Part shown: positions 28,371 to 62,876 of the stretch, one piece after another
Layout: the number at the start of each line of letters is the position of its first letter
Position numbering within the stretch: the stretch's first letter is position 1
Source of the DNA: Pezicula radicicola
Lineage: Eukaryota; Ascomycota; Leotiomycetes; Helotiales; Dermateaceae
NCBI GenBank assembly: GCA_003008705.1
Contig: PDUO01000079.1
Location: 3,044-67,043 of the forward strand
Direction: 5' to 3'
DNA length: 64,000 nt
Position numbers and translations under genes: made by a program
Notes under the pieces: model-generated
What the model saw: the letters and a program-made list of their open reading frames with translations, nothing else
What the model was told of the DNA's origin: nothing
Databases searched by the model: none

Positions 28371-28374
28371 CGTC

Positions 28375-32814: not shown

Positions 32815-32849
32815 GTTGTTCTAGGAGATGGTGCAGTGCTTTGTCTTTG

Positions 32850-33740: not shown

Positions 33741-36700
33741 ATGAGCGATCCAGAGCAATTACCTAAGGCGGAGGTTGTTGCCCCTACAGCAGCAACAACC
33801 CAAACCCCAAGTATCAATCGACACAACAGACGAGTACCTCTCCAGCAAGGAGAAATTTGAGTAAGAGCCCCCTCCCTTAATTCATTCCTCCCACAAGCAC
33901 ACTCCCCTTCACGTCACGTCACATCACATGACTGACCGCGCATCCCCCTCCCCCCCTCGTCCAGCCTCATTGCCCTTCACGGTTTCTACAGTGTCAGCAA
34001 GGAAGCCTGGGATAGCGAGAAAGAGAACTCGAGCTCCTGGCTGAAAACCCTGGTTGTGGCGAGAAGCTGGCAAGCACGAATCGTGCGGTATAGCTGGGGT
34101 GCGACGGACTTGGTGGAGGGGTTGTATATGCGCTAGGCGATTAGGAAGGAGGCGCTTAAGCTGCTAGTGGAGTTAAAGGAGCTGAGGCAAGGACAGGAAA
34201 CGGTTTGTTAAGGGTCATTAGCGATTTGAAGGTTTGGTAACTAATGTGTGAGGTGTAGCCGTTGCCGTTGGTGTTCTTTGCGCATGATATTAGAGGTATC
34301 ATCGTTAAGGAGGTGAGTTGAGTTGAGTTGGGCAAGTGCTAGATTGAGCTAGTCATGTTGATGCTGATACTGATATTTGGATATAGGTGTTGGTTCTAGC
34401 GAGCCAGTATGGGAATGAGTATACGGATATTCGGTGCTCAACGCGTGTCCTAGTAATGAACCCCAATTCCCAAATGTCTAAGAATAGAAAGTCTTCTAAT
34501 ACTCATCATAATTGTTCTTTGGCTGTCCTCACAGAAGCAACAGCGTTAATAATATGGAAACCAACATTGCCCGGTTTCTTCTTGCAGGAAATGAACAACC
34601 AAAGGTACGGCGCAAGATGCAAAGTGCCTCGCGAATTCCATTATTGCAGTGAACAATTCTTTCCTACAAACGAGGATGATTATTCGAGCGCTCATCACTA
34701 GCGGTTTTTCGGAAATGGACAACATACGAGAGCAGGTGAGAGCAACGCAACGGTCGTACTCACTATTAAAGTTTATGTTGATTGCGTCTTTAGATTTTTG
34801 ACCCGTCCACGACTTGCCTACGCACCCCTTCAGAATTTTATTTTGCAATTAAAAGGCCGCATAAGGAGTTAACACAGGAGCCCGAGGGTGATGACTTCTA
34901 TGGAATTACTGGCAAAGTGATGAATAGGGCTGCGTCTTGTGAGTGCATCTCTTGAAATCCACCCGCGTTGCCGTAACTTTGCTGATCGACGACACTAAAA
35001 CCATGTGACACAGTTCCCTGCCGTGAAGATGGAATCTCTCCATTTATTGACGTTATTGAATCCCAAGCTGTCCCGGTCTATCAATTAAAGACTCTACGGG
35101 ACCCTACACATAGGTTCAGCTGGCTAGGGAAAGATAAAACCTTCAAAGACTGGCAAGCCCATCAACAGACGCACTTCTTGCACATCTATGGCTCACCAAG
35201 CATCTCTGAAGCTGCCGAGTACGCTTTTGCGGTGCTTGGTGATGCCAGAGATAGTATATTAGTCGATAAAATCATGTACTTCAAATTCGACAGACACGAC
35301 ATACGCCGCAATTCCATCGGTGCCATGGCCAACACATTCCTATCCCAGATTCTCAGCCGATGGCGAACCTCACCAGCAGAACTGATACAGGACCTCGAAC
35401 CACCTGACTTCAGCGACTGCTGGACCGACAAAGACGCTTTCATCTTCCTGGATAAGATCAGGAAATGCCTGCGGCATTCAGGATAGGTGAACTAGATCTT
35501 GGATGGTCTAGATCAGTGTGACGTGTCTGGCCACTGGCTCCTGAGTGAGATCTTAGGTGTCGCAGCACGCTCGGAGCAGTTCTTTAAGGTGATTGTAACG
35601 AGCGTTGATGATAAGTATATCCGCGATGCGCTCTCGGAGTTTCCTGAAATTGACCCTAGAAAACACGAGACGGTTCAGCCGGTTGGAGAGACTCGTCCTG
35701 AGTCTGATTTTGCACTGTTAACGGAAGTGGTCCAGGATCGGCCCCAGCTTAGTTTTATCGAGCTAAAGATTCGAGAATTAGTACATTCTTGTAGGGATGA
35801 TGACCAGCTGCGCCGTCTGCTCTTAGAATGGCTGCGGAGTTCACGATTTGCACCGACACGAGCAATAGAGAAAGACATTCAATTTCTTACCCCGCCCGCA
35901 CCAAAGAAACTTATCTAGAGGATATTGGAGTCAGTAACGGAGGATAGACGGCCTTGGGCTCGGAAGCTCATAATGTGGATCATGCACGCTGTTCGACCAC
36001 TGGCCCCTGCCGAGCTTGAAATCGCACTTGCAGTGGATGAAGCCTCAGAGGAATCTAAAATCGAGTTGAATGCTTGCCTTGATATTATGGAAGACATGAA
36101 GGATTGTTTTGGACCTCTGTCATAGAAAATGGCGAAGTACATTTTTGTCATCCGTCCGCAAGGGAGATATTCTCACCCGAGAACGCTGCGTCCGACGACC
36201 ACCGTCCGTGGTATGTATTGCACAATCCAAAGAAGACCATAGGAAGATTTTCGACGTCTGTCTACATTATCTCGCTCTTCCTGATGTTCAAGATTAGATG
36301 GTGGTTGCTTGCAAGGCTTCACCGAACACCCAACCAATCCTCGAAGGCAATTCAGATCTCCTGTCTTACGCTATTCAGTTCTGGCCGGGGCATTGCCGAT
36401 TGGGATGTATAACTAACTCTGCTGGTAAAGGATCGAGAACCCTCTCCAAATTTCTAGGCAACAAGAAGGCGATTTAGAGTTAGGCAGCCGCGAATTGGTA
36501 CTTCTCCAACCTACGCACCCGATCGGATAAGTCTTTCTTGTTACCCTTACCGATTATTGCATCTCTTGGATTGGGAACACTAGTCGTTGATCTCGTCGAG
36601 AGCATGAATTAAAAGGAGAAAGACAAAGTTGTCCCGTTCGCGCTTACGGAAGCTGCACGGAACGGCCACAAGACTGTTGTGCAGGCGCTCATGAAAGCTT

Positions 36701-39433
36701 CAGATATTGGTGAGTCTGACTATCTAGAAGCAATAGTAGTGGCGGCGCTTTCGGGTCAGTTTGACATCCTAGCTAGCCTGTTGAAGCATGTGTGGGCAGA
36801 GTTCAAAGACATCAAGTTGCCCAATATAATTACTTCCCGGATGGTATTTTTTGGTGCCGACACTGTTGGAAGCTCATCTGAAAGCAGCTGGGGATGCCAA
36901 CCCACCAGCCCAGTCCAACTACGCGCCACCTATTTACATCGCAGCCATGAGGAATCACCTTAGCACCGCTGACGCCTTGTCGAAGTACAGAGCTAGCCCT
37001 GATGCTCCTAACACTGATTGGAAGGATTGCCTCCCGATTATTGTGGCGGCTAAGCATGGCCATTCCTCGATAGTCAAGAAGCTCGTCGAAGCTGGCGCGT
37101 CTGTGGAAGGGAAAGGCAGTGAAGGCAAACCTTCCCTGTGGTGGGCAGCGTTGCTTGGTCAGCACAAAGCCGTCCAGGCTCTCATTGATGCAAAGGCAGA
37201 CAAGAGCAGCGTTGCCGTAAGTCTGACCGAGGAAATCGATTGGCCGATCTTCCTCTCGACAGCGAGTGCTGGCTTCCTGAAGTGTAACCCTTCTTGCCTA
37301 CGGTGTGGGCCCCAACATCCCCAGGACGACGAAAAGTTACCCACGACATGCCCTACGTTGGGCCGCAGCTGTGGGAGATGCTGAAATGTATCGTCAACTT
37401 CTACAGCGAGACACAAACGTCGATGGGGCGGAGGATGACAAACCCATCCTCCACGCCGTCACATCGGGCAAGCGGGAGGTGGTGGATTTGTTCATTGAGA
37501 AGGGCGCAGACCTCAACGCGATGGTTGACAATAACACCCTTGCAACCACTCCTCTCATCATGGCAGCGGAACTGAACCTTGTGGGCCTGGCCAAACTTTT
37601 GATTGAGAAGAACGTCAGTATTGACCTTGCCCTTTCATCAGGAGTCACCGCACTCTACGATGCGGCCCGCAGAGGGTTTGTTGAGATAGTAAAGGTGCTC
37701 ATTGCTGCTGGTGCAGATCTCAAGACGGTGGCATACGAGAACAAATAGGGCGTAGTCCATGTAAGTTACGCCCAGGAGGAGTGTCTCAAGGTTCTCCTCG
37801 ACGCCGGAGCAGATATTGACGCCGTCTGCAAAGATGGTACGGCCTTGTACCTTGCTGTATTTAATGGCAAGATCGAGGGGGCGAAGCTCCTTATTTCGCG
37901 TGGCGCAAATCCTGAGATTCTGTGCCAAGCACAAGATTTCTGGGACGATGTCTACAACCCTCTCCAGGCAGCATCAGCGCTAGGTCATCTGGAGATCGTG
38001 CGTGCCCTTCTTGAAGGTGGCGCTAACCCCAAGACAAAGACCCCAAGGGGTGCTACGCCGTTAATCCTAGCTGTTGCATGCAACAAAGAGGACTGTGTGA
38101 AAGCACTGCTGGAGTACGACGCGGACCTCGAAGCTATGGACGAGAACAACGATACAGCTCTCCACAATATCGACACAACTACATCGCCGTCTATTACTAA
38201 GCTGCTGGTCAACCGTGGTGCTAACATTGAGCATCGTGGTCGGGAAAACTACACATTCCTTGGCAGGGCGGTCGCTAACGACGCCTATGATATTGTGAAG
38301 TATCTCCTGGAGAAGAAGGCCATCATCAACGTAGTTGGTGGTTATCAAGCCGGTCCCTTGCACCTCGCAGCGGGCATAGGCAAGCTCGAAACCCTCAAAC
38401 TGCTCATCCAACACGGCGACGTCAACCTCGGGGATCCAAACAACAGTGGCACACCCCTCCAATCCGCGCTCTACACCTCCAACCAGATTGAAGACGAAAC
38501 AGCCAGGACCACCATCGTCCGGTACCTCATCGAAGAAGCAAGCGCTGACGTCAATACACACGTCGGCTACTTCGGCTCCGCCCTCAACATCGCCTGCCTA
38601 GGCAACACTCTCGATCACATCAGCCTCATCCTCGAAAAGGCGCCGACCCGCACTGGGCCGACACCTACGGCCGACAACTTATCCACTACGCCTCCTTCAA
38701 GACCATCGACCACGTTCGGCTGTTCCTCAACGTAGGTGTTGACGTGGCAGCTAGTAGTAAAATCGGGCAAACGGCCCTACACATCGCTGTCGTGAGCGGG
38801 CGCATCGATGTTGTGGAACTAATCCTCTCCAAAGCTAAGAACTTTATCAGTGAGCCTGATTCCGATGGCTGGACGCCGCTGATGTGGGCGTGTAGGCTGT
38901 GCGATCAGTGCGGCGCGCCAGCGTCTATTAAACCAGCTATTATCAAGCTGTTGATTTCCGAGGGCGCGGATCTCTGGGCGAGGGAGAAAAGGGAGGATCA
39001 TAAGTGGTCGGCGCTGAAATTGGCGAGGTATCGTGGTGCGAGTGAGGAGGTGGTGAAGTTGTTGACGCCGAGAGTAAAGAGTAGGATTGGGAAGGGGGGT
39101 AAGGAGGAGGTTTGGGATGTCAAGTTTCATTCTTCCAAGCGTGGGCCACGCACGCAGGGGTATTGTGATATTTGTTTGTTTGTGAGTCTACTCTACTCTA
39201 CCCATTACTCCTTCTCGCTCCTGTAGTTTGATTTTTTTTTTTAACTTTGTTGTCTATTTTACTAATAACCCGAACAGGGCATCTACGGCACAGCGCACGC
39301 ATGCACGGAGTGTCTCGATGCCTTCTACATCTGCTTCAAATGCAGGAGTCGCAAAAAGGAGTTCCATCCGCAGTACGATAAGTGGGAGGTGGAGGGGACG
39401 GAGTTTAATGCAAGGACGATCATGGGCACCTAA
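33741..39433 (+). pseudogene. NLR-like protein: hydrolase-like, degenerate NACHT, ankyrin repeats, Cys-rich tail; inactivated
   Basis: ATG 33741 starts an N-terminal alpha/beta-hydrolase-like domain (LIALHGFYSV; VFFAHDIRGIIVKE, where the nucleophile Ser of an HSxGG-type elbow is Asp and one Gly is Arg). Next is a NACHT-like NTPase: the P-loop position reads HIYGSPSISEAAEYAF with no GKS/T, the Walker B-like ILDGLDQCD is at 35496-35522, and a winged-helix-like block follows (RRPWARKLIMWIMHAVRPLA). About 36640-39080 holds many ankyrin repeats (GHLEIVRALLEGGANPKTKT). The tail has CxxC pairs (YCDICLF; HACTECLDAFYICFKC), like a ZZ/RING finger. Introns: 33861-33964, 34203-34258, 34313-34386, 34736-34793, 34939-35013, 39182-39277. 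In-frame TAGs at 34134, 35484, 35493, 35916 and 37746 fit Gln or Trp losses. Frameshifts occur near 33810, 36115, 37295 and 38645. The family sits in cytoplasmic non-self recognition and cell death. Confidence 0.75.
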
Positions 39434-39848
39434 GGCTTGACTGACTGTAGGCTGAGCGTCTATTTATCGGCGGATCCGAAACTGGCGTAAAGTAATCCTT
39501 GTGATACATTTTCACGAGTAATACGGATGCTTTGGGGGGCGGTATAGTAATAGCTACCATAATGCCATATTAACGGCCTTTACCTTTATACCTTCGGAGA
39601 AATTTTATTTCTTGGAGTATAGTTATATAGTAGGAGCGGATAGCAAACGATTCACAGATGGGTTGGTTATTATTATAAGGTAGGAAAAGAAGAGGATTTT
39701 TCTCTAGTATAGTATTATAAGTTTCTCTTGGAATAAAATAAAACAACTTTTATTTAAGTTATTACTGTCGGTTCCCTTTATCAGCTAAGTGCTCTCGTAC
39801 CCCCAATTCTCTTGTAAGCAAGCGTTCGTCACCAAAGCCCTTGCAAAC
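39434..39848. other. Intergenic, AT-rich towards 39.7 kb
   Basis: No reading frame of note. This region takes the place of the missing 3' part of the terpene-cyclase gene. Confidence 0.4.
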
Positions 39849-40435
39849 TCACCAAATAGCCCAACTCACGCCTCCAAGAGTGTTGTCGAACAACCGTTGG
39901 TACAAGCTTGCTACGGACAGGTACACCTAACACAGGGCTACACTCCAAAAGTATAGCTCCGTCGTGTCAGGGCCTACAACACCTCTGTAGAACTTTCCTT
40001 CGCGTTTTCCAACGTCATTCTGAATCCACCATTTTGCAAACATCCAGTGGCCTAGCGTAGCGCCAACGGCCATAACAGCAAAGGTGCCACCGATCCTGCG
40101 CGCAACTGCAGGCGCATGGCTCCACTCATACTTGGCATTCTTTACTATACCATATACCATGCCACAGTCAATGATCAGCCAGACCGTGAAGACAGATCGC
40201 TCAAGCGGAGACTCGGCGACATAGAGCGCATACACCTCTTCCTAAGCAAAGTTGAGAGCGAGAGCGAGAGCGAAGAATGGCATGCTACATAACCGTGATC
40301 GAAGGGATTCGCAAACATATAACAGATAGCACAGAGTCCACAGGCCTCCTCCAACTTGAAGAAGTAAATTACAGGTAGGTACGACGTGGGAAGGAACATG
40401 AAGAGGGGGGGTGGGGGTGTATCGTTAGAGCCCAT
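39849..40435 (-). pseudogene. PaxB-type integral-membrane terpene cyclase, truncated with stops
   Basis: ATG at 40435 starts MGSNDTPPPPLFMFLPTSYL, and a KLEEACGLCAICYMF helix follows. After a frame change near 40290 come MPFFALALALNFA, TAG (40242-40244; Trp expected in the conserved W-E motif), EEVYALYVAE, then VWLIIDCGMVYGIVKNAKYE, WSHAPAVARRIGG, ATLGHWMFAKWWI, FWSVALC, TAG (39927-39929; Gln expected) and VYLSVASLYQ, ending at TGA 39849 near a possible GTGAGT donor. The hydrophobic helices, NFxWE-like site and EWSHAP(L/A)V.R motif fit the small seven-helix cyclases of indole-diterpene and meroterpenoid pathways, or their widespread orphan homologues. No P450, prenyltransferase or PKS lies nearby. 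The last exon is gone. Confidence 0.6.
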
Positions 40436-42017
40436 GATTGATTGATGCGAGAGAATGATGACGCGAATTGAAAATCAAGGAGTAGTGGAGGGGGAATTGC
40501 TGCTAAAGCTAATGGTTCAGTCTCTCGGAGAGAGCTTGTTGTTGAAGCATGCAGGTGTGAGTCGACTATTGAGAATGCTGAGCATGAGCAGAATATGAAC
40601 GGCAAAGAAGAGGACAAGAACTGCTCGTACCATCCCTCTTCGGTACGTAAATGCCGGATGACAAATGGCTTACCCATCCTTAACAGGTCATCCAGCCTTT
40701 CGTGAAGATGGGATGCTGCTACAAAGGCCTCAAGCTATTCTGTATCAAGACGAGCGCGGCTTAGAAAAAAGTTCTTCAGGTTCAGTTCCCTCACTTATTC
40801 TAATTCGAAAAAGCAGCTATCATGATATTTTACCTCTCTATAGGTTGGAGCAACCTAATAATACCCCTTCATTTCGGGCTGTTGCAGTAAGGATGTAAAT
40901 AGAACCGTTAAGGCTTATTTTCTTGTGTATGTTTTATTAGCTTACGCGATATAGATTGACCAGCAGAGGAAGAAATATACCATGGAATGGTTTTTGGTGG
41001 AAAGGGTATCTTGTTAATATTTCCCAAAAAATCAGGAACAGTGGTTACCAAATGATGGATCTAAATCCAATATAGAGAATTATATCTATGCAGAGCTTCG
41101 GATACTTCTTCGTTTGTGCGTACGCGTATTCATTTGGTCATCTACCTATGTATGTGCATAACATGTTTTCCGGTATAACGATGCAGATCTTCAGTCCTGA
41201 AGAATATTAATCAGGATGGAGAGAGAGGGAAAGTGTGTTGAGGATAGTATATATTCTTCTCTGGTGCCCACTCTTAAAATAGTCTTCAGTTAATCTTCAA
41301 CCTTCTAAGTCAATAATCCATTGACTTATTCATTTGGTTCATTCATTTGTTTTGTCGGTTGTACTAAGAACTAAAGACCTGCCTGCACCTGCTCTAGTAT
41401 ACTCGTGAGTGCTATTATATCTTGATTCGAAAACCCACCTAATATCGTTCTTGCGAGTAAGAGTTCGCGAGTAAGTACTTGCTGTAGCCTGAGGAGTTCC
41501 TTCTAGCTTTGACAGGAGATGAGACGCCCGTCGCCGAACAAGTGTCAAGCCTCAAGCGTTCTCGCCTTACGGAGGTAAGGTAGCTAGCTCGTTAGTCAAA
41601 AAGCTTACTCCCTGCTCTCGAACCGGATAAGAGTCTTATCAGTAAACCTCACTTGCTCGATCCGTTGTATACTGGCTTAAAGTTTGCGCTACAAACTCGA
41701 CATCAAGTGTGGCCTGTATAAACGCTAAGAGTGAGTATCGTTGTCGTAGCTTAAATACATCCAGAAGCTCACGGGACGCTTGTTTAAGATTGAACATAGA
41801 GCAAAATGCTACTATATATATAAGACTAGTATCTTACTGAATCTAGGAAGATATATAATTAAATAATCTAAAAGCTGGTACATACGACCACAGACTAAGG
41901 AGAACTGGGCATCCCGTCCCGCAAATGTACAGCTGTCAATGATTTCGAAGACTTCATTGTAAAGGTCTACTTGTCGTTAGCAGCATTTCCTGATATTGAA
42001 AGTCAACTTACCATAGA
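40436..42017. other. Intergenic; no supportable gene
   Basis: Short frames occur (40665-40898 plus; 41339-41548 minus) with no motif. From 41200 to 41900 the sequence is mixed and possibly repeat-derived, but no terminal repeats were seen. Confidence 0.35.
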
Positions 42018-42343
42018 ATTTGTTCTCCAACGAAGCCTGCGGTTATATGATCGCTGCTCAGCCCCAAAAGAATGCCCAGGAGAGGTTGGTCTCCGAGTTG
42101 ATGTCTTACCCAAATGCTGCTTGGGACGCTATAATTGCTTAAGCGAACCAGACTCCTGCGAGCTTGCAAGATGCGGAAACCATTAAGATCATTGGAAACG
42201 TCATGAAGACCAACGTTTCGACTTGTACTTGTGTGGGAAGCTACTTCTACCCTCAAATTTGCCGTATATACTTAGACATGTTATCTATGTACCGAGCAAC
42301 CAGCCAAATAATATCTGAAGCGGTGCAGCGGGATGGGGGATAT
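42018..42343 (+). pseudogene. CRM1/XPO1 exportin fragment
   Basis: The frame NLFSNEACGYMIAAQPQKNA, then LMSYPNAAWDAIIA, TAA, ANQTPASLQDAETIKIIGN, VMKTNVSTCTCVGSYFYPQI and RIYLDMLSMYRATSQIISEA aligns from memory with the central HEAT-repeat region of the nuclear export receptor CRM1 (LP N.AW..II / MKTNV...S.G..F..QI.RIYLDML..YR..S..I). The TAA (about 42140) replaces Gln. Only about 108 codons remain, with no start or other exons. It ends abruptly at about 42343, 48 bp before a fragment of an unrelated gene. Confidence 0.8.
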
Positions 42344-42390
42344 TAATGCTAGCATGTTTGTGGTCATCACTATCAGTTTCTATTTTGTAG

Positions 42391-42639
42391 CAAGCTGTCC
42401 AAGAGCTAATCATGAAACGATTTGACAAAGCCTCTACCGAAAATGCGCATACCACTTCCTCTCCACCGCCAACGAACGGCAGCACCATCAAATCCAGACC
42501 AAAAGTCAAGAAAGAGAAGGCAGTTAAGGCCGAAGACTCTGATGAAGAAGAGGACGAGCAACTTGGTTTCAAGGAAACATCCAGAGTCAGACATAAGGAA
42601 ATCCTTTCTTGGTCTTCAAAGCTCAATTCCTCCCTATAA
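42391..42639 (+). pseudogene. UAF30/SWIB-type protein fragment (DEK_C end plus acidic linker)
   Basis: An intron-like end (TTTTGTAG, 42383-42390) precedes QAVQELIMKRFDKASTENAH, then a Pro/Thr linker, SRPKVKKEKAVKAEDSDEEE and a divergent end to TAA. The (V/I)QELIM.RFDK motif at an exon start is the last helix of the DEK_C domain of fungal UAF30/SWIB chromatin proteins, followed in them by a basic/acidic linker. The SWIB domain itself is absent. It directly follows the CRM1 scrap, including what appears to be its own upstream intron end, so the two came from separate loci. Confidence 0.5.
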
Positions 42640-43580
42640 ACCTGATTCCAAGCACTTAGACTTCAATTTTGGGTTTTCTTTTCTTCTGTTTGCTGTTTTC
42701 AACTCTCTTTATACACACCCTTGTGGCTAAACCGAGCTAACCTTACTAAAGTCTCTTGGTGATCCACAATCAGTTGAATCGGAGGCCTTCCCTTTATTGT
42801 TTGTAAAGCTTAGCTTTTGCCCTGATTTTCTTGGAAGAGAGCACCGGACACTTAGGAGTTTATAATTTGTTGATTTTTTATTCTTTGTTTTAGTACTAAG
42901 ATAGAAGGTACGTTTTTATTATAGATAGATTACTTAGGCCCGATTAAATTTGTACAACTATTGTCAAGGTCTCACTTTATCTGCGTAGATGTTCTCGTAT
43001 AGTAAACTTGTTTAATTTATTCTTACGAAAGGTCTTGGAGGCTCTTGCTTGTCGCTTTCCAAGTGTCGTCAAAAGCATAACGAGCATCTACAAAGTCAAT
43101 CTCGGCATCTTTCATGAAGAGGCTGAACATCCCAAAGCCACCATTAGTAAAATGACACTCGCCTTAGAGAGAAGTTATGGAGTGAAGAAGTGGACATACC
43201 GAACAACCTCTATACAACGGAGGCTTCCTGCATCGAGGAAGTGGAGTGTTGGTTTGGCGGAAGGGCCGTTGGAAAGTTTATCATCAGCCATTTCTGTGAC
43301 TACCAGGACTTAATATGAAATAAATAGAGATAAAAACAAGTTAATTGTACTGTAATGACGGCTTGTGGTGGATTTTTTTTTGGCTTGGAATCCCAGAGAA
43401 AGAGCTTTGAGACAGAGCCGCTGGTGGAGGTTGAGGCCTCGTTTTGTAGTGCGCCAAGTACTCCTGTTGCTCATCGCTGGGTGTCGTGGTCATATGAGGC
43501 GACAGTCTGGCGTCGACCTGAGGCAGTGGGTTACTTCCACCAATTGCTCCTCGATTTCAAGGAAAGAAATGCTTGGTCCC
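42640..43580. other. Unassigned, part of the fragment mosaic
   Basis: A minus-strand frame near 43190-43295 reads MADDKLSNGPSAKPTLHFLD, and plus-strand frames at 43008-43313 and 43355-43687 are partly protein-like (SYEATVWRRPEAVGYFHQLL). None could be assigned to a family. Confidence 0.25.
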
Positions 43581-43830
43581 AGGCGTGCCAGCATGGCAGC
43601 TTAAGCGACCGAAAACCCTACGCCAGAATCAGAATCAGATGCTACCTCCGAAGTTGCAGAAGAGCCCGCTCGGGAAACAGTGATTGAGCAGGCAAAGAAG
43701 TTTCTCGAAGATGACGAAGTGCGTGATGCATCGACCGACAAGAAGATGTAAGTATACTTCCAACCACTGAGCTTCTTCATTGACAGCAAGGGACTCCAGA
43801 TGAAATGCTCTAGTACTCCTTCCACCCTCG
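43581..43830 (+). pseudogene. Pex14 N-terminal-domain-like fragment
   Basis: The frame (VPAWQL, shift) ATENPTPESESDATSEVA then VIEQAKKFLEDDEVRDASTD, KK ends at a GTAAGT donor (43749), and after intron-like sequence the frame FFIDSKGLQ appears. (A/E)..FL.D..V..A...KK..FL.SKGL is the pattern of the Pex14 N-terminal domain of peroxisomal import factors and related fungal proteins. The TAA at 43602-43604 and the frame jump show decay. Family call moderate; the start ATG is not defined. Confidence 0.5.
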
Positions 43831-43839
43831 TCCTCGTAC

Positions 43840-43991
43840 TCCCATACTTGCCCTAAATTTACAGAACGAGCCTTTGCTACTTTCGCGGCCGGTTTTCGTC
43901 CTCTCTTCTTAGGTAACTGTGCGATTGGATCGGGGAGGGTGTTATCTTCGGGAGGATCATATAGTGCGTCGCTGTTGATACTGAAATCGTC
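43840..43991 (-). pseudogene. AT-hook protein fragment
   Basis: The minus-strand frame DDFSINSDALYDPPEDNTLP, then DPIAQLPKKRGRKPAAKVAK, carries a classical AT-hook core (RGRKP flanked by Lys). It continues ARSVNLGQVWEYEDEGG towards 43840 and runs on antisense into the Pex14-like fragment. There is no start, stop or other domain. It is a scrap of a nuclear DNA-binding protein of unknown identity. Confidence 0.45.
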
Positions 43992-44615
43992 TCAGAAGCA
44001 CGCTAAGTACTCGACTATTACCGACACGAGTTCTTTTACTTTCTCACTCACAAGCCCAAAGAAACACTCGAACACGTCACAATCAATACAAGAAACCAAA
44101 GACCGAAATGTGGTTTTCTATAAATTATTACAACAGTGGACGAAAAGGATTAGATAATTTCGTTCAAAAATATTATATACTTCCTTTCGTACCATACACA
44201 CTCGCCGGGGAATTACACTTCACCAGCTTTAAATTCTAAGGATACAAGAACCTAAAAGAATTAGCCGAGCGATGTTTAAGAGTTAAGATACTTTCCTAGT
44301 TCTAAACATTTAATTAATCTTGTAAGGCCATTTTACGTTAAATCTTGTAGATATTTCTATCTACTGCTTCGTCCGCAGCCTTATTTATCTACATACTACA
44401 TCTATACCGGCCTTAACGGAATGAAAAAAAAATTAAAAAAAATTGGATTGACCTAATGGGAAACACCGTGTCCGTACAGAGATCTGGTTTCGATATAGTA
44501 GCGACTTCTAGGGCAGATGGGGTTTGCGGGTTGATTGTCGCCATACTGGGCTCTATTCTCGTGCGGCTTGGGGGAAGAGGTGTGTAAAGGAGGCAGAGAT
44601 GATGAGAGGAACGAC
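43992..44615. other. Unassigned, partly AT-rich
   Basis: No motif recognised. Two A-runs lie near 44424-44442. A plus-strand frame at 43939-44157 has Ser-rich low-complexity translation and no support. Confidence 0.3.
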
Positions 44616-44621
44616 AATTAG

Positions 44622-44918
44622 AGACGATCGAGAGCCCGGCGCAAAGAATACCTGCAAGAACTCGAAGCCCGATTGTGGCAATGCGAATTACAAGGTATCA
44701 AGGCCTCTGCGGAGACACAGGCGGCTGCGAGAAGGATCGCGGATGAAAATAAGAAATTGAGGTCATTGTTGGCTCAGCATGGAATTGGACAAGACAGCAT
44801 CGAGGCCTACTTGCAATCGATCGATCAAGTAATCGCAGGCCAGTACGCAGGGTACGAGAGCTTCGAGAAAGGCAACATCAATACAGGAATTGAAGGAGAG
44901 GTAGTAAAAGGGCGATAG
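44622..44918 (+). pseudogene. bZIP transcription factor fragment (basic end plus leucine zipper)
   Basis: The frame starts with a basic-region end (RRSRARRKEYLQELEARL), then a zipper-like helix (QCELQGIKASAETQAAARR, IADENKKLRSLLAQHGIGQD) and SIEAYLQSIDQVIAGQYAG, to TAG. The string ENKKLR.LL.QHG(I/V)G.DS(I/V)EAYL is typical of a family of ascomycete bZIP regulators. The N-terminal half of the basic region is not recognisable upstream and the C-terminal part is missing. The remaining frame is open, but no start codon with a full DNA-binding region exists. Confidence 0.65.
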
Positions 44919-45323
44919 AGAGATCCTAAATGAAAATAAATGTAGTCCCTTCTTGAACGAGGACCTAAGGGTGGATAGAAGGTTTCTCCAGAAAATCTAA
45001 ATAGTCCATCTTTGCTTAGAAGACTTAGGAAGAGTGTTGTCAAGATAGACTTTGCGTCTATAGTGCTATTTTCTTAGTCTTTTTTACGCCAACAAGAATT
45101 GTTTGGTAATCTTTGTCTTTCAGCTCACTGAGCCAACCTACAGCCCCGGCACTCCTTAAATTCTTACCATAATGGCAGACTCCACGCGCAAACCCGCCAA
45201 ACCCCTCACTTCCAGTTCATAGAAGTTAAGCAATCATGTGATGCTAATCCTAAGTACTCGCCGGAGAGGGAAAGAGGTCTTGCCATCATCAAGAGAACAA
45301 TTCCAGAAATCAAGGAAGCTGTG
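44919..45323 (+). other. Intergenic, then an unassigned N-terminus-like piece
   Basis: ATG 45172 gives MADSTRKPAKPLT..., and a second frame continues QFIEVKQSCDANPKYSPERE and RGLAIIKRTIPEIKEAV to about 45315. It looks like the start of a real protein with a frameshift around TAG 45220; the family was not recognised. It abuts the SMC4 fragment on the other strand. Confidence 0.3.
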
Positions 45324-45432
45324 AGCGGCCGAAATCTTTCCCTGCCTCATTTTACTAGCTCTGAATCCAAAAACAAAGAGCACCGAATCAATGACATTGG
45401 ACTTTCCGGAGCCGGTTGGGTCAGCTCCAGGC
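45324..45432 (-). pseudogene. SMC4 (condensin) Walker A fragment
   Basis: The minus-strand frame DPTGSGKSNVIDSVLFVFGF then RASKMRQGKISA contains the P-loop of SMC ATPases (GPNGSGKSN; here DPTGSGKSN) followed by the (S/A)(L/V)LFVFG(F/Y)RA.K(M/L)RQ.K(I/V)S signature of SMC4-type condensin subunits. After ISA the similarity breaks down. It is one short internal piece of a gene of more than 1200 codons, placed between plus-strand fragments. Confidence 0.75.
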
Positions 45433-45505
45433 CAGGAGGCTCTGATGTGCCACCTAAGGCCAGGACGGCACCAGGCACTGGTGCATCTCCCGCTGCATCT
45501 GCTCC

Positions 45506-45634
45506 AGTAACCTTTCCCCATCACAACTAGATGAGATTGCACTTATTGCTGTTGAGAGAGAGGTCATTTTATTCCGGTACCAGGATTTTGCTGATGTTGG
45601 GCCTGAGAGACAACGAAAGTATGGGGCTGTCTAA
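45506..45634 (+). pseudogene. TauD/TfdA-type dioxygenase fragment
   Basis: The frame SNLSPSQLDEIALIAVEREV then ILFRYQDFADVGPERQRKYG to TAA matches the N-terminal region of fungal 2-oxoglutarate/Fe(II) dioxygenases of the TauD family (L...Q.DELALL.AERGV..FR.QDF.D.GP..Q..FG). The HxD iron ligand region is not present, so about 42 codons of a gene of about 380 remain. Confidence 0.6.
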
Positions 45635-46026
45635 AGCTGTATCTAGCAGACTTTTCGATCTCTTTAAAGAGGTAAAGCTAGTATCTTGCAATAGGGGCCT
45701 CGGATACTTTCGGTGATTATTGTTTGTAGGGAAACATAGAAGAAGTTTTTTAAATAGGAAAAGAAAATAAAGAAATAACTTCGGGGGCCAAAAATTCAGA
45801 AACGAAGAAAGAAGCTTAAACTAGAAGAGCACTAATGAGAATCACCTGCTGTAGCGTCGTATGAAATGACTCGGCTTAACTTAAATTTACGATTTCAATT
45901 ATAGGAAGTAGGAAGGATGATAGAAGGAGAGCGAATGCGCGAGGTATCCTTTCTAGCTGAACATAATACACAAAGCATTAGAAAGCTACTTCTCTCCAAA
46001 ATTCTCTCTCTCACTTCAATAACGGT
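45635..46026. other. Intergenic; nothing supportable
   Basis: A-rich sequence with no motif. Confidence 0.4.
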
Positions 46027-46330
46027 TTAAAGATATCTGCGAATAGGCTGGCCTCGAGTTCCACGGTGGATTCTACTCCGCCGGGTAATGTTGATAGTGG
46101 TTGATTTACCAGCTATACACTTGGTGCCAGAAGCCAGAGGTTGAACAACTGACCAAGCCCCAGAAGCGCACTGTTGGAAGGAAGTTCCGTTCACGTAGTT
46201 CTATTCTCCGTCTGTTGTGTAGGCTGTTCCGGCTGTGAAGGTGCTGCCTGATCCACTTGTTCCCGTTGATGCTGGGCTGGTGCTGGTTGCGACTGTGCTT
46301 GGTGAGAGATGGTAAAGACGGTAGAAATAG
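46027..46330 (-). pseudogene. CBM19-like chitin-binding C-terminus
   Basis: The minus-strand frame reads SPSTVATSTSPASTGTSGSG, TAYTTDGE, TAG (46201-46203; Gln or Trp expected), NYVNGTSFQQCASGAWSVVQ, PLASGTKC, then a basic tail to TAA 46027-46029. (C/Y)..G.(S/T)(F/Y)QQCASG.WS..Q..A.GT.C is the pattern of family-19 chitin-binding modules at the C-terminus of fungal chitinases, after a Ser/Thr linker as here. The GH18 domain is absent. Confidence 0.6.
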
Positions 46331-46525
46331 AAGCAGGGAGAATGTCAAGAGCCCATCCGTAACGCCAGTAGCAGAGAAGAAGGTCAAGAAGGTAGCCACA
46401 GCTACTACAGGATACACAGGAACTGCTCGGCCAAGACCCGGTGCGAACAAGTCTTCGAGGGAAGGGTTAGTTTCAGAGCGGACGGGTTCTTTCACGTCCA
46501 TGGCCTGTCACAAGCTCTTTAAATG
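46305..46525 (+). pseudogene. SPT2-like chromatin-protein fragment
   Basis: The frame GRNRSRENVKSPSVTPVAEK then KVKKVATATTGYTGTARPRP, GANKSSREG and a divergent end to TGA resembles the low-complexity central part of fungal SPT2 chromatin proteins (KP...ATTGY.GTARP...). It lies immediately antisense to the CBM19 fragment. The family call is tentative because the region is biased in composition. Confidence 0.35.
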
Positions 46526-46526
46526 A

Positions 46527-47876
46527 CCTCTGCTTAGGGGTCAGTCCAGGACTCTCTCTCAAGTAGTCAGTCCTCAGAAATTCTATCCAGTACGGAGATA
46601 ACGCCGGATGTAGACGCGTTGATATCCGGGAGTGTTACTAAGGTCGGGAGGGCGATAGAAACGCTCGGTATAGATATAGATATACTTACTTGTAGTAGAC
46701 CTAACGAAGATGGCTGAGATAGAATTGAGATGAACGTCTATACTCCCACTCCCTAAATCCAGCACCAGCACCAGTACTTCTAAAATTCTTCAACTACCCA
46801 AGAATGAAGGAAGAGAAAGCTGGGTCCGGGTGCCAAAATGTGGAAGTTCTACTCAACTTAAGAAGACGGTAAGTGGTAAAAAGAAGGAAGAGAGTTTCAA
46901 GTGGCCAAATTATATATATATATAAATATATATGATCTATAAACAAAATAGGGTTAGTACTCCGATAAGTACTGTGGAGAAACGTCTGGTGGATAGTCTG
47001 CGTTTGTTGGCGAAAGTGCGGAAAGGGACGTGCTTTTGACTAGGAATCCTAAGGTACTATATTCAATAGATTATCTAGTTAATTTCAATGAAAATGGTAC
47101 AATTATATTGAAAGATTTGTAATCGACGGACAGCAGTGCTTGGTGTTACAACTAGGGCCAAAATTAAGGGAGTGACCTGCAGGAAGGCGTGTGGATCGTC
47201 GAGATTATCATTATATAGTTTGATAGCTATGACCGATGACGACGGGGACGCCCGGCTAGGCTGTAAGCGAGCATAACGAGAGAGATTAGCGTTTATAGGG
47301 GAGTTGTGAGCTACGATTTTTCGTGTTATATTGACAGTTTGGGGGTATGGTGGTAGTAGAGAGAGTTTAGATGAACGTAAGGGTCGTGCTTGGACTTGGA
47401 CTTGATTAACGGGGGAAGTGAGAGGCTCTAGTTAGGAGTCTTTATATCTTGAATGATAATATATTCACGCCTTCTGATTTGTATTTTCTAACCACCAACG
47501 AATTTCACCGCCCCAGTTCAGCCTTGTGGCTTGTGTCAAGATTTTAAGATGTTGTTCTATAGCACCGAGATCACTTACTTGATCGCGTGCCCCAAGATTA
47601 TCATTTTCTTCCATATGCGTCCACTCTCTATACCATCTATCCTAGAATTAGAATACTACCTCATATAGCGAACTTCAATACCAAATTCCTACTGCTTGAC
47701 TGCGCTATTACTGCGCTGTAAATAGCCATAGTCTTGTTGTAAACTTGATGCTTTACTACCTGGTCCAACATCCGGCTCTAAATCATCGAATCTGCCTAGC
47801 GATACCCCGGAGCTATACTTACTCTTGTAGGTAGCAGTGCTATCATGTCTCCTAGATGATTACCAGTCACCGATGC
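46527..47876. other. Unassigned; one coding-like minus-strand piece
   Basis: The minus-strand frame at about 47335-47175 reads KIVAHNSPINANLSRYARLQ, PSRASPSSSVIAIKLYNDNL, DDPHAFLQ, ending at GTCACT. It is clearly protein-like but unassigned and could be another gene scrap. A TA-dinucleotide microsatellite lies at 46911-46930. Confidence 0.3.
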
Positions 47877-48384
47877 CAGTGTTTTCATTTCCCCCTCCTT
47901 TCCTTTTCCTATCCTCTCCTCTCTTCTTATTTCCTCTCCTTTCCTCTCCTTTCCAGCGATTTTTATAACTTTCCTTTCCTTTTACTACCCTAAAATAATT
48001 ATTCTCCTCTCCTTTCCTAAGGCCTAGGAGAGGAAAGGAAAGGAAGGTAAAGGAAGGGTATTTTAGGTAGGAGGGGAAAGTGAGGGTAGGGGTAATATAA
48101 TTAAGTATAATAATATATTATATTTAATAATATTAGTTTTTTTTATACTTTTCTTTATTTATATTATATAAAAAGTAAACCTCTTAGTTAAATAATACTT
48201 CTTAGTTTCTATAGATATCTTAAAATAATATTAAGTAAGTTTTAACTCTCCCCGTCTTTCCTTTTTTATCTTATCCTACCCTGAGAAATTTATAGCTTTT
48301 CTATCCCTTTCCTTTCCTAAGGTTGATCTATCCTCTTCCCTTCCTAAGGTCAGGAGAGGAAAGGAGGGGAAAATGAAAACACTG
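47877..48384. mobile_element. hAT-like MITE, 508 bp
   Basis: Terminal inverted repeats CAGTGTTTTCATTT.CCCC.. match over about 28 bp with one or two differences. They are flanked by 8-bp direct repeats, ACCGATGC (47869-47876) and ATCGATGC (48385-48392), differing by one C/T change. CAGTG-type ends and 8-bp duplications are typical of hAT elements. The inside is homopyrimidine/homopurine (cctttcctctcc and complement) and AT-rich, with no transposase, so it is a non-autonomous element. Further CCTTTCCTAAGG-type palindromes lie within. Confidence 0.8.
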
Positions 48385-48392
48385 ATCGATGC

Positions 48393-48913
48393 TACTAGCC
48401 GTTAGCGTCGCCGCTGAGGAGCCAGCAAAGGAGGAGGTTGAGAGATGAAGATTTCGCGCTCCTTAGTGTATAGATAACGAATTTCTGCCTCGAACTGTAC
48501 TTGTTTACCTGGTCGACTTCCTCGAACTTCTAACAATCGCCCTAGAGTTTACGATTCGCCTCATTGGTACCTTTAAGATCGATGCCATAGGCATCTAGTT
48601 CTCCAAAAGCCGGAGATCTAGAATCACCCCATCTGCCGTTTAACCCTTGAGAAATTACCAAAGGGTGATATTCCAAGAGTTCAACAAGTCTTAACAACTC
48701 ATTGGAATCATTGCCCTATTCCCCTAAACGGGCCAAGAATAACTCAGCTACTTTAAGATATTATATCTTTAGTAAAGCAATAATATTACAAGTGTTTGAG
48801 TTACTTTTACGGGGGACTCTTAGAATGTGGCGACGTTCGAATTTGCAGTCGGCTCTGGATCAGTGCCTGGGACAAGATCGTTATTTAGGCGATAAAGACT
48901 ATTCTTCAAAACC
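48393..48913. other. Unassigned sequence upstream of nitrilase relic
   Basis: No supportable gene. It may contain the former nitrilase promoter (TATATC near 48758). Confidence 0.3.
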
Positions 48914-49200
48914 ATGTCTACTCCAAAAGTTGTTCGCGTTGTAGCTGTCCAAGCCAAATCTATGGACTTTGACCTCCAAGCTAATATTGTAAAAGGAGTC
49001 AAGTACATTACCGAAGCCGCTGAAAAGGGCGCAAGTCTCGTTGGATTCTCGGAATGTTTCGTTCCTAGATATCCATATTGGATCTAGACGCAGATAACCT
49101 AGCTGACCCCAAGCTTTACCAGGCCCTACCGAGAGGCTTCCGTTGCCATGAAATTTCGTAGTCTACCTTCTTGCTGGCCAAGTACCTTTCAAAGCCCCAA
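48914..49200 (+). pseudogene. Nitrilase N-terminal fragment
   Basis: ATG 48914 starts MSTPKVVRVVAVQAKSMDFD, LQANIVKGVKYITEAAEKGA, SLVGFSECFVPRYPYWI, TAG (49085-49087). V(R/K)(V/A)AAVQA.....L...V.K....I.EAA..GA.L(V/I).F.E...P.YP.W(I/P)W is the N-terminal signature of fungal nitrilases, with the catalytic Glu in the FSE motif. The stop sits at codon 58 where Trp is expected (TGG-to-TAG). Downstream reading is lost within about 100 bp, and the Lys and Cys catalytic regions are absent. Nitrilases hydrolyse nitriles to carboxylate and ammonia; this copy cannot. Confidence 0.75.
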
Positions 49201-49648
49201 TAGCTCTCCGAGGTTTCCTGCAAAAAAAAAAGGGCTTATAGCACACAAAACGCCACCCGCACCACTAATCCGCCTTATTTATTATTACATTATCATTCCA
49301 GACGACGGAACTAACGACTTTCTTTCTCTCCTCCGCTCCGCTCTATACATCGCTAAGAGATATATCCATCTAAATCTATATCCTTACTTATCTAAAAGTT
49401 TAAGGCCGCGTTTCAGAATATACTCAAGACTCAATCTGCCTTCAGTTTTTAAGCCTAGTATATACACTTAATATCAAAGCAACAATATTAAAATAGAGTT
49501 AACTAACCTCTTGCCACTCCCAAACAGGACGGAAAACTATCAAAGAATCCAACATCCTCAAAGAGGTTAGATATCTTGGTCTCTATGTCGAATTGTTTTT
49601 AGGTTAAAGTAAATATAAAGATTATATAATTACAAGAATACTCCGACA
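49201..49648. other. Transition from nitrilase relic to repeat DNA
   Basis: Open but compositionally biased frame 49148-49471 (Tyr/Leu/Pro-rich) without motif; AT-rich after 49470. Confidence 0.3.
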
Positions 49649-49839
49649 GTAATATCATGTATAGCCGTGGTTTATAGGCGTTTTATACTTACCCTATTAG
49701 GGATTAGCGTAACCGCGAGGTATATCCTTATTACTCTCTTTTACTTAGATAGAAGAATACAACCGAATAATAAACTAACAACCAAGACCCCTACGTTTAT
49801 ATAAACCCCTGTATTAACTTATAGGCCTATAATACCAAC
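49649..49839 (+). repeat. Left LTR of a short LTR element
   Basis: This 191-bp block (gtaatatcatgtatagccgt ...) recurs at 50753-50944 in the same orientation with differences that are almost all C/T or G/A. Confidence 0.75.
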
Positions 49840-50752
49840 ACTGATCAGTGGTTAACTTTACTATTAAACTATAGATTAGCAAGGCTAAGTAGAAGAGACG
49901 AGAACTACGAGAACTCGATACAATACTCGAAAGAGGAAGTGTATCTGTACACGATCATAGTAACTGTACTAAGGGACTATTCTCCCACAAACCAGAGGAC
50001 TATTCTCCAAAGGCTTGTTCCAGAGCTAGTACCGCAGCTAGACTCCGAGCCCGTATTTAATAACCTAAATCCTTTCTACAAAACCAAGCTTTATAGCTAT
50101 AAAACGATAGCTACTACCAATTTACCTAATTACACTAGTTATATTACAACAACTATACAACTATGTAACCTACAGAGGATACTATTAAGATGGGGGAGAA
50201 GATTGATCTTACGAAATAGGGGAAACCGTTTAATCCTACAGATACTATAAATAATAAACCTTAGATTAATTACTACATCAAATATAAGTACGTATTCTTC
50301 GACTACCGAAAATATATTAGAGGAATACTCTAGGAGTATATACAAGATGATTTTACAGGATGGATACTAGAGCTATAGGAGAAGGTAGACTAAGAACTTC
50401 TGCGTAACTTCCGTAACTTCTTACGACACTACGGAGTCTATGTTACAAAGGAACGAGGGAAGCTTTACCCTGCGGCTATAATACAACTTCTTGAGGAAGG
50501 AGAGAGAGAAATCGAAGATCGATATAAATGGACAGAGGTAGAGATAAGTAACCAGAAGAAGAATAGAGGTGGTTTCTGGAATAATCACTATCCTAATAGC
50601 CAAATTAATGTTGACCTTGTCGGAGCACCAACTCCAACTACCGCAACTACAGAGACACTCTTTTCAGACTACAGAGACTTTCTTTTATTATTACGAAATT
50701 GGTTATTGGTTTAGGGATAGTATAAACCATAAAAGAGAAGTTGCTAGTAACG

Positions 50753-50944
50753 GTAATATTATATATAGCCGTGGTTTATAGGCGTTTCACGCTTACCCTA
50801 TTAGGGATTAGTATAACTACGAGGTATATCCTTATTACTCTCTTTTACTTAGATAGAAGAATATAACCGAATGATAAACCAACAACCAAGACCCCTATGT
50901 TTATATAAACCCCTGTATTAACTTATAGACCTGTGATACCAATA
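50753..50944 (+). repeat. Right LTR of the short LTR element
   Basis: Partner of 49649-49839 (gtaatattatatatagccgt ...). A purine-rich aaaagagaag lies 12 bp upstream and may be the polypurine tract. Confidence 0.75.
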
Positions 50945-52019
50945 CACTCGTTTCATTTATATTCGTTACTGTAATATTATAGCCCTTACTTCCCTCGTCT
51001 ATTAAATTCTTTAATTTCTGTAAAGCTACTACTAATAATTAGTTTCGTAAGATCCTTAAATATAGGGTCTTATAGATAGATACCTCTTTAACTTTTAAAT
51101 TAACTCTTTGTAGGAGGGGGGTTTAAAAGATCTTATACTTACTCGCTACTATATAAATTTACCACTTTTGAGGAAATTCAATTAAGGTAAGCTCATCTAA
51201 AGAGGGGGGCAATAGAAAGACTTAAATTGACCTTAGATTATTAAGTACTTTATTAATCTATACATTTATTAAATTAATATTAGTTAACTCTATCAATTGC
51301 AATTAATCTTCTTCTTCTTCTTCTTTTATATAGTAGTAAAAGATAATGATTCCCCGCACTATCCTCTCCCCTAAAAACAACAAGGGTAACTATCTCCCTA
51401 AACGCCTCCTTAATACAATGTAATCAACCCCCCCCTCCCCCCCCAAAAAAAATAATTATCCTTAGTATCTAGTGGCTCTATTTTTAATAGGCTAATTAAT
51501 AAGCGCTGAGATTGGACATCAGGTTCAGATCTTACACCACTCACTCAAGCGCCATATCCATATCGGCGTTAACATTCAACAGCTCATATATCGCAGGGAC
51601 ACATCTAGTATTACTAATATCACGTTTATTGCGGCCTTTGAAGCTCTTGTTACTTTAGGAATTTTTCGTGCTCTCGAAAAGTTTTTAAAAACTAGAGCTT
51701 CTTCGAATTAGATTCATTGATCTTAGTAAGTTGTAAATCACAAAACGGGAGTAGAATCTTAGGAGTATATTAAGTATTGTTTCACGCCAATCCTCACCTC
51801 ACTTTGCGGGTGCGCCAGCCACCGCGCACGTGACACCTCGCCGCTCTGCTCACCCTTGCTTCACCTCAACCTCACCCATCCTCACCGGCTTCGATTGTGC
51901 GCTCTCCACCGCCTCACCTCTGCTCACCTCTCTTACCTAGGTGTGCTCATCCCCGGTCGCGCGACTGTCGAATCGCATCACAAAGAAATCCCGAGACTTC
52001 GGTGTCTTTGACTGACTAG
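50945..52019. other. AT-rich relic, homopolymer runs, then CTCACC-rich upstream region
   Basis: From 50945 to 51500 the sequence is AT-rich with a C-run and A-run near 51429-51453 and a (CTT)n run near 51308. From about 51775 to 51960 the top strand is rich in CTCACC words and CpG, which may be the promoter/leader of the gene starting at 52020. Confidence 0.4.
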
Positions 52020-53051
52020 ATGACTTCAGCAATGTACTATTTCTGGGTCGAGTACGGAGACTTTCTTCTTGACCTTCTAAATGCAAATTCTATGACCACA
52101 ACTCGTGGATGGTCTCGTGTTCATAATTATGAAGGTCAAGAGCGATATGTTCCCAATAGAATGCTTCAACGAATAGAGTTTCCATGGGGTATCGATGAAG
52201 ATATAACAAAATCAGCTACAGGAGTTGGCTTGCCGTTGCGATTTTTTAGTCAAGATACCACTGGGACGGGCGGGTGTCCATTTGTGGCAGATGAAGCAGC
52301 CATGAAAGTAACGATAACAGGAGAAGATGAAGATGAAGATGAAGAGGATGGTGTTAATTTTGTCGTTGACTATGACTATGAGATGAATATCGATTCTGTC
52401 CCAAAAACGCAGGAAAAGGTGGGTGCTGGTCGGAGGTCACGAGGTGATACTTTGACGCGCCGTTGGAGATATCCATGGCGGTTTAGGGTTACACAAGCTG
52501 CGCTCGACGAGTGGAATGAAGAAGCTGAAGGGTTAGACGTTGAGGGTCCAGAAGAGCGTGTGGATAAAGGGAAGGGTAAAAAGGTAGAGAAATGTAAGAA
52601 GACCAGGAAAGACAGCTCGAAAACAAAGGGTAAAGAAGTCCAAGAGGATTCACAAGAAGAGGATTCACAGGATGAGGATGAAGACGAAGAAGACGAAGAG
52701 GAGAACGAAGAAGAAGATGAGGAAGATGATGGTCCGAAGAGATATGATGGAGATAAAAAGAAAGTAATTAAATGTGGGCGAAAGAATGGCAGGGGCGGGC
52801 CATGTGAGCAGAACATTACGATATTACCAGGCGGCTTTGACAATGGATGTAAGAACCATCGTGGTGACCCAAGGCTGCCAGGTTTCGATGAATACAACAA
52901 GAAACTCCGAAGATTTCGAGAGGTGTTTGTCAGATCTGATGGAGAACAACGTTTCAATTATTCGCAGGTCTTTGCGTGTACTGGATACAGACTCGGTCGT
53001 CAATTAGGGAGGAATGCGGGAGTCTGTTATATTGATTTTCAATTGTATTAA
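52020..53051 (+). CDS. Acidic orphan protein with Cys-containing C-terminus, 343 aa
   Basis: A single uninterrupted frame runs from ATG 52020 to TAA. Residues 1-90 look folded (MTSAMYYFWVEYGDFLLDLL ... PLRFFSQDTTGTGGCPFVAD). Residues about 100-115 and 215-240 are Asp/Glu runs, 185-210 are Lys-rich, and about 250-343 form a second folded segment with Cys residues (KCGRKNGRGGPCEQNI; GGFDNGCKNHRGDPRLPGFD). There is no signal peptide or membrane helix; the charge pattern suggests a nuclear or nucleic-acid-associated protein, which is inference. Family not recognised. It is one of few intact genes here and carries no RIP-type stops, so it is either under selection or recently acquired. Confidence 0.7.
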   Translation: MTSAMYYFWVEYGDFLLDLLNANSMTTTRGWSRVHNYEGQERYVPNRMLQRIEFPWGIDEDITKSATGVGLPLRFFSQDTTGTGGCPFVADEAAMKVTITGEDEDEDEEDGVNFVVDYDYEMNIDSVPKTQEKVGAGRRSRGDTLTRRWRYPWRFRVTQAALDEWNEEAEGLDVEGPEERVDKGKGKKVEKCKKTRKDSSKTKGKEVQEDSQEEDSQDEDEDEEDEEENEEEDEEDDGPKRYDGDKKKVIKCGRKNGRGGPCEQNITILPGGFDNGCKNHRGDPRLPGFDEYNKKLRRFREVFVRSDGEQRFNYSQVFACTGYRLGRQLGRNAGVCYIDFQLY

Positions 53052-58812: not shown

Positions 58813-58819
58813 TAATGCA

Positions 58820-62816: not shown

Positions 62817-62876
62817 CCTAATATAAGGGGTCCAAGGAAGGGGAGGTGGTGCAAATTAGGTAGTGAACCGTGGAAT

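Follow-up and report, generated by a model that had tools for sequence, protein, structure and literature searches.

Islands of short, end-to-end copies of unrelated chromosomal loci in the genome of Pezicula radicicola

We analysed a window of 64,000 nucleotides (nt) from the fungus Pezicula radicicola (assembly GCA_003008705.1, contig PDUO01000079.1, here C128; positions 3044-67043 of its 169,421 bases) within a genome of 61,044,626 bases in 152 contigs. Labels with C denote contigs of the same genome and labels with L loci fetched from it; coordinates without a contig label are window positions. Part of this chromosome segment consists of dozens of copies, ~50-300 letters long, of unrelated genes and non-coding DNA of the same genome, set end to end. 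In total, the window contains at least 60 such pieces, with sense orientation mixed; their sources are 58 loci spread over 35 contigs. One piece of a 5S ribosomal RNA (rRNA) gene comes in addition. A preliminary description made from the letters alone had placed a mosaic of unrelated gene fragments at 42018-46525; aligning the pieces with their sources in this genome showed that the mosaic is real, but that it stretches well beyond those coordinates. The pieces are grouped in islands (M1, M2, M2b and M3 in the window, M4 past its end; Table 1).

A first query of 429 bp from the described stretch matched four other contigs, with a different short stretch in each. In a 10-kb query (39500-49500) the region 41.5-49.4 kb was tiled by unrelated loci, largely end to end; 39 of 90 candidates were scored and 40 matches listed, so that the piece counts are lower bounds. 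Matches were realigned to the fetched source loci to produce a table of 62 rows, 51-315 bp long (median 126.5), which corrects the initial estimate of ~30-110 codons; identity to the source is 73-98% (median 87%), and the sources lie on 36 contigs. Two rows from C151 (62830-63054 and 63100-63234) that resemble a paralogous flank are dropped from the 60-piece count but still enter the figures for length, orientation, end motifs and sources; C151 matches 40916-41344 and 62830-63234 at 69-78% identity, without a clean empty site. Weak pieces starting at 27185, 45920 and 47538 were kept in the counts, and the 5S matches were counted as one piece outside the 62 rows. The counts rest on window queries from 25000 onward, with 51.9-58.8 kb covered by one query in which repeats occupied the 39 scored of 80 candidates. 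The stretch 42018-46525 is overlapped by 22 table pieces; of the 21 pairs of neighbours that these form, 14 meet within 3 bp. In M1, M2 and M3, sequence assigned to no source is more A+T-rich than the pieces; the unassigned part of M2b is not.

The source loci are still in place, hence the pieces are copies and not moved DNA; the loci used twice each are on C3 and C64. No single parental locus with its order kept was found for the 62 rows, and sources on so many contigs rule out a single decayed segmental duplication, as the preliminary description had argued. Control stretches behaved differently. Positions 28500-36420 contained no piece (34 of 34 candidates scored), all non-self matches falling in a palindromic repeat at ~28373-28506. 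Source locus L012 (3.3 kb), the only one used in full as a query, had no matches other than itself, the mosaic and a single stretch of 39 bp. For C126:119800-122200 (L064), matches were confined to C92 and the window's ankyrin-gene region, with no tiling. Repeat-rich C151:97700-106300 (L094) gave repeats and paralogues but no chain, and in L069 the only matches outside M4 were at 2144-3406, to C5, C127 and C67. The absence of tiling in the control stretches indicates that the mosaic exceeds chance. The C151 locus also shows an isolated 197-bp match of 91% (L094:7874-8070 to C13:57062-57258) and, at L094:5755-5843, a cluster of matches 50-90 bp long; each of the two may represent one captured piece or else a short repeat.

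Pfam matches were obtained for the parent genes CRM1, Sec5, Cse1-like, MTPAP-like, Pex14, SMC, Glyco_transf_15, TauD, SPT2, K_trans and MTHFR, and for the DEK_C parent at E 1.5e-12 when its protein was joined from two exons. Pex14_N and CRM1_C exceed the cut-offs in the mosaic frames themselves, and the mosaic frame with the SMC4 piece matches a solved Smc4 structure at 1.9e-12. The CRM1, DEK_C, Pex14, SMC4, TauD and SPT2 calls made from the letters are thus confirmed. Species-named CRM1 relatives ranked highest are ascomycete fungi; other fungi rank lower. For the pieces first read as AT-hook, bZIP and CBM19, separate source loci exist (L017, L010 and L007, respectively), but Pfam did not match the frames tested, which leaves these three names unconfirmed. 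Many pieces are genic, as had been described, though not all: one comes from a 5S rRNA gene, and 31 of the 62 rows fall within long open frames of their sources, the remaining rows lying outside any. No repeat-derived piece was recognised among the sources, in a genome search that ignores very common words and is thereby limited in recognizing such pieces.

The 5S piece matches five loci over the same interval, and the two source copies examined are RF00001; it was recognised via these copies, the Rfam scan of 41000-52500 having returned only two weak microRNA-like matches, in the purine-rich inverted repeat. The 5' part of the DEK_C piece is intron sequence (read by eye), and the downstream end of the CRM1 exon piece falls within ~1 nt of GTAAGT, a 5' splice site by inspection. 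The retained intron sequence and the DNA from upstream of the 5S gene show that the template of these two pieces was DNA.

Joints are tight. Among the 29 consecutive pairs that abut within 3 bp, perfect microhomology ranges over 0-6 nt with a mean of 1.24 nt, compared with 0.64 nt in simulated joints subjected to the same alignment and filter (n=1160, P 0.0016); this outcome of a junction check proposed in the preliminary description is accompanied by a mean BLAST overlap of 2.14 versus 0.91 simulated (P 0.02). The joints without microhomology (10 of 29) are compatible with end joining. Base composition at the 124 piece ends reveals no conspicuous motif (20 positions, lowest P 0.005, at the outermost). 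In M3 a C3 piece is cleanly split by a C25 piece, as when a break inside an existing piece is filled, and in M2 two pieces originate within ~400 bp of each other on C64, in swapped order. A further four of six joints in M4 abut within 2 bp, by match coordinates.

In 30 coding pieces, 15 of which are sense on the + strand, the first, second and third codon positions show 0.094, 0.084 and 0.159 differences per site. A 31st piece (L009) was left out as its gene is on the opposite strand to the frame used; its inclusion makes little change (0.092, 0.084 and 0.156). Frames of some other unnamed sources may be wrong, and dropping L027, L093 and L087 too changes little. Such rates fit an unconstrained copy compared with a constrained parent, and are in keeping with copies of the lineage's own genes rather than with a donor from another species. 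New stop codons arise on the mosaic side and therefore measure mosaic decay: 16 stop codons in 1196 codons correspond to a mosaic-side change of 0.078 per site (0.045-0.127), the remainder for the parent side being 0.080 silent changes. Near-equality of the two values, within a wide interval, fits the expectation for copies of the lineage's own genes. In CRM1 the parent has the commonest residue among 77 aligned homologues at five of six amino-acid differences, so that most of those changes occurred in the mosaic. C-to-T change is highest when the next base is A (0.167), followed by G (0.127), and lowest for C or T (0.064-0.067), presumably a mild signature like that of repeat-induced mutation. 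Third-position divergence is homogeneous (P 0.09 without L009, P 0.08 with it) and similar among islands (M1 0.132, M2 with M2b 0.163, M3 0.140), as expected for one burst or events close in time.

Table 1. Islands, pieces and inserted element. For M2 rows, the strand column names the window strand that carries the piece in sense orientation, with a dot where the gene is not known; coverage is by identified pieces
Feature	Position	Strand	Remark
Island M1	25270-27292		11 pieces, 52% covered
Piece from C2	25270-25388		M1
Piece from C1	25626-25706		M1
Piece from C14	25718-25805		M1
Piece from C61	25898-25975		M1
Piece from C62	26281-26355		M1
Piece from C112	26357-26481		M1
Piece from C114	26673-26780		M1
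Piece from C87	26780-26852		M1
Piece from C64	26850-26950		M1
Piece from C109	27011-27108		M1
Piece from C83	27185-27292		M1, weak
Island M2	41522-49570		37 table pieces and one 5S piece; 72% covered (77% with inverted-repeat element excluded)
Piece from C62:539538-539673	41522-41653	.	
Sec5 gene piece, C114:142817	41648-41784	-	Pfam of parent
5S rRNA-gene piece	41851-41919	+	starts ~30 bp upstream of 5S gene
Piece from C67	41921-42032	-	overlaps edge of Cse1-like open frame
CRM1 exon piece, C25:315073-315379	42030-42336	+	Pfam of parent
DEK_C gene piece, C1:2226422	42337-42562	+	~54 nt of intron retained
Piece from C2:1438095	42558-42719	.	
Piece from C1:132058	42721-43035	.	
Piece from C47:944860	43032-43301	.	
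Piece from C62:594940	43391-43530	-	open frame with MTPAP-like domain
Piece from C66:936644	43529-43579	.	98% identical
Pex14 piece, C131	43579-43747	+	
Piece from C1:1099911	43744-43823	.	
Piece from C91	43823-43986	-	first read as AT-hook; no Pfam match
Piece from C63	43988-44169	.	
Piece from C61:976473	44612-44845	+	first read as bZIP; no Pfam match
Piece from C142	44842-45083	.	
Piece from C81	45087-45218	.	
Piece from C115	45234-45317	.	
SMC4 P-loop piece, C135	45328-45420	-	96% identical
Glyco_transf_15 gene piece, C55	45432-45511	+	
TauD piece, C70	45506-45624	+	
Piece from C114:216439	45920-45987	.	weak, 79%
Piece from C36	46008-46304	.	first read as CBM19; no Pfam match in frames tested
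SPT2 gene piece, C68:468110	46304-46460	+	
Piece from C68:595958	46733-46913	.	
Piece from C25:1169310	47125-47398	.	
Piece from C68:638402	47538-47589	.	weak
K+ transporter gene piece, C109:124956	47591-47701	+	
Piece from C64:525857-526016	47702-47861	.	same source region as 49216-49363
Terminal-inverted-repeat element, 508 bp	47877-48384	.	later insertion in mosaic; flanks ACCGATGC / ATCGATGC
Piece from C109:1204562	48436-48538	.	
MTHFR gene piece, C14:87326	48537-48640	-	
Piece from C14:843261	48646-48783	.	
Piece from C80	48795-48873	.	
Piece from C65	48877-49085	.	
Piece from C2:2172226	49086-49213	.	
Second C64 piece (525607-525743)	49216-49363	.	order swapped relative to source
Piece from C14:681801	49465-49570	.	
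Island M2b	51468-51938		three pieces, 79% covered
Piece from C75	51468-51601		M2b
Piece from C3:997523	51602-51737		M2b
Piece from C78	51838-51938		M2b
Island M3	60872-62822		nine pieces (C103, C100, C2, C3, C25, C3, C61, C69, C98), 57% covered
C3 piece (935485-935627)	61301-61741		M3; interrupted by C25 piece (61381-61671), <=1 bp duplicated
Island M4	L069:4092-4945 (C128:71135-71988)		~4 kb past window end; seven pieces, seven contigs

Several repeats and other elements lie near the islands. The inverted-repeat element at 47877-48384, which we take to resemble a hAT-type miniature element, is flanked by a near-perfect 8-bp duplication and was inserted after the mosaic had formed; it has purine/pyrimidine-rich arms and ends CAGTGTTTTC. 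A 1.3-kb element at 49646-50945 with 196-nt direct terminal repeats (91% alike) is apparently an internally deleted copy of a ~6-kb element present on C68, C110 and C122. At 56398-58814 there is an A+T-rich 2.4-kb element with ~85-bp terminal inverted repeats and many full or partial copies at ~68-91% identity. A short dispersed repeat of ~155 bp (25020-25176; more than 25 genomic matches listed) lies beside M1, and the palindromic repeat at 28373-28506 (~130 bp) has many genomic copies. The region 34986-39314 contains an NPHP3_N (NACHT-like) frame followed by many ankyrin repeats over several frames. We rejected C126:119800-122200 as an uninterrupted counterpart gene; C126:120656-121434 looks like a copy of the NPHP3_N/ankyrin region with internal deletions. 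The start of contig C128 (L068:1-240) is N.

The islands are probably fossils of break repair, in which short fragments of the fungus's own genome were joined by end joining and later decayed. We prefer end joining because microhomology is 0-6 nt, sense is mixed, donors are kept, piece ends have no motif and one piece is cleanly split. Copies of distant loci with donors retained, and joints with no or short microhomology, are features that the islands share with templated insertions or filler DNA, and filler DNA at break repair was among the options named at the outset. According to this explanation, numerous short stretches of DNA from the fungus's own chromosomes, being copies or debris of many loci, often genes, would join each other at chromosome breaks while the source loci remained unaffected. 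The fragments may have existed as free DNA derived from replication intermediates or from degraded nuclei in the syncytial hypha; classical or alternative end joining would ligate them with 0-6 nt of microhomology, and most would have arrived within a single burst or a few closely spaced ones. The joined chain would thus become part of the chromosome. Later the small inverted-repeat element inserted, as probably did the 1.3-kb element, which resembles a long-terminal-repeat element, and mutation with an excess of CpA-to-TpA decayed the pieces. Nothing indicates a function of the islands.

The strongest rival to end joining is microhomology-mediated break-induced replication, a possible though clearly less probable route, in which a broken end would copy ~50-300 nt per locus through dozens of template switches without free fragments. 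Sources kept after copying, microhomology above simulation and two pieces from within ~400 bp of C64 all agree with it, as do BLAST overlaps of 7, 15 and 8 nt in M3 (where perfect microhomology is only 4, 6 and 0); it sits less well with the joints that have no perfect microhomology, and with the C3-C25-C3 triple, in which C3 continues from the very base where it broke off, as a typical return switch would not. That triple, the one clear nested piece, together with the presence of several islands on one contig, could instead suggest that single fragments were captured singly over a long period at a fragile site. We consider such serial insertion improbable: for 38 pieces it predicts 5.1 split sources (5th percentile 2, minimum 0, 2000 runs), but M2 has none, C64 is the only M2 source seen twice and its pieces are in swapped order, and third-position divergence is homogeneous.

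Capture by a transposable element had also been proposed. Pack-type elements capture gene fragments in plants and animals, and Helitron ends have the form TC...CTRR with a 3' hairpin. Helitrons likewise are reported to capture gene fragments in plants and animals (PMC4289320), and the islands sit among repeats. Nevertheless, none of the off-window matches among the 40 listed (39 of 90 candidates scored) spans two neighbouring pieces, no repeat pair brackets M2 (40500-52500 searched, minimum length 20) and piece ends show no end motif; Helitrons of Pleurotus ostreatus are reported not to capture host gene fragments (PMC4289320). Helitron support is absent from the block-copy and bracketing-repeat searches, neither of which was aimed at Helitron end hairpins. 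Queries beyond the described stretch revealed the further islands M1, M2b, M3 and M4 on the same contig, and no copied multi-piece block is among the matches listed. An element of Pack-type, Helitron or new kind that captures and carries the pieces is therefore very unlikely, contrary to that proposal. Even less credible is the joining of reverse-transcribed RNAs by template switching: half of the rows do lie in long open frames of their sources, but one piece contains intron sequence, another contains DNA upstream of a 5S gene, and the 30 coding pieces divide evenly between the two strands in sense orientation (15 on each). We attach equally little weight to chimeric reads or another assembly or library artefact. 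The joints were read from the assembly; yet the pieces diverge by 2-27% from their sources, with stop codons, indels and a CpA-to-TpA excess, and a later element with its near-perfect 8-bp duplication lies inside the mosaic.

Several observations weigh against end joining of own-genome fragments. No source was identified for 28% of M2, the piece-length distribution has no nucleosome-like peak, the microhomology excess suits template switching too, and the pieces far outnumber those of a plastid example with three fragments (PMC3989485). In addition, a gene-by-gene likelihood test rejects a strict own-lineage equal-rate model (P 0.003 for all 31 pieces; 0 of 300 simulations without L009; 0.003 without L009 and CRM1) because conserved genes hold more silent change than the model allows. 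CRM1 differs at 5, 2 and 21 sites by codon position, and the excess persists without it. Any of three causes would account for the excess: parents whose silent sites changed faster, decay that was uneven, or a donor that had diverged slightly. We weighed the stop codons most because they are independent of the parent's evolution; the disagreement with the likelihood test stands.

We also entertain, as a rather doubtful extension of the break-repair explanation, a single episode of genome shredding, in which a whole nucleus, either the fungus's own or that of a closely related partner after hyphal fusion, would have been cut to ~100-bp fragments, and these, strung together, would have filled several breaks in a single chromosome. 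The gene-level likelihood tests leave possible room for a slightly diverged donor, whereas the stop-codon estimate fits the own lineage. If this episode took place, the islands would be a readable sample of that nucleus's genome. In either case they show how far chains of captured self DNA can extend and supply gene fragments and chimeric frames by a natural route; the origin of the captured debris becomes testable by strain comparison.

No comparable natural locus was described in the titles or abstract openings of the open-licence literature searched. Chromothripsis and chromoanasynthesis produce many joints in one crisis; the islands, in contrast, consist of 50-300-bp copies from 35 contigs with sources retained. 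Mosaic loci of nuclear plastid DNA are similar in their rearranged short fragments, for which non-homologous end joining was proposed, but they carry plastid DNA (PMC3989485) and the islands chromosomal DNA. Class 2 human templated sequence insertion polymorphisms are alike in having a patch from a distant locus at a break with end-joining junctions; they are described as single patches, for which the authors favour reverse-transcribed RNA as the source (PMC5110952). Multiple fragments captured at breaks have been reported in yeast, humans and plants (PMC11724301). Templated insertions in yeast dna2, rad27 and RPA mutants share the copy-paste of short distant DNA, several donors per break and little microhomology (PMC11724301); they were assayed at induced breaks, whereas we observe dozens of pieces per island, in several islands of a natural genome, long decayed. 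The filamentous fungus Magnaporthe oryzae inserted DNA from other genome regions, including coding sequence, at Cas12a breaks, with 2-3 bp of microhomology at three of four junctions (PMC9684475). These insertions were laboratory-induced, and the accessible part of that report describes no long chain of pieces, while the islands are natural chains. Capture of stray genomic DNA at breaks has thus been reported, in the accessible parts of these papers, as one or a few pieces and mostly in the laboratory; here a natural genome carries islands of dozens of pieces, and their origins, junctions and relative age are all legible.

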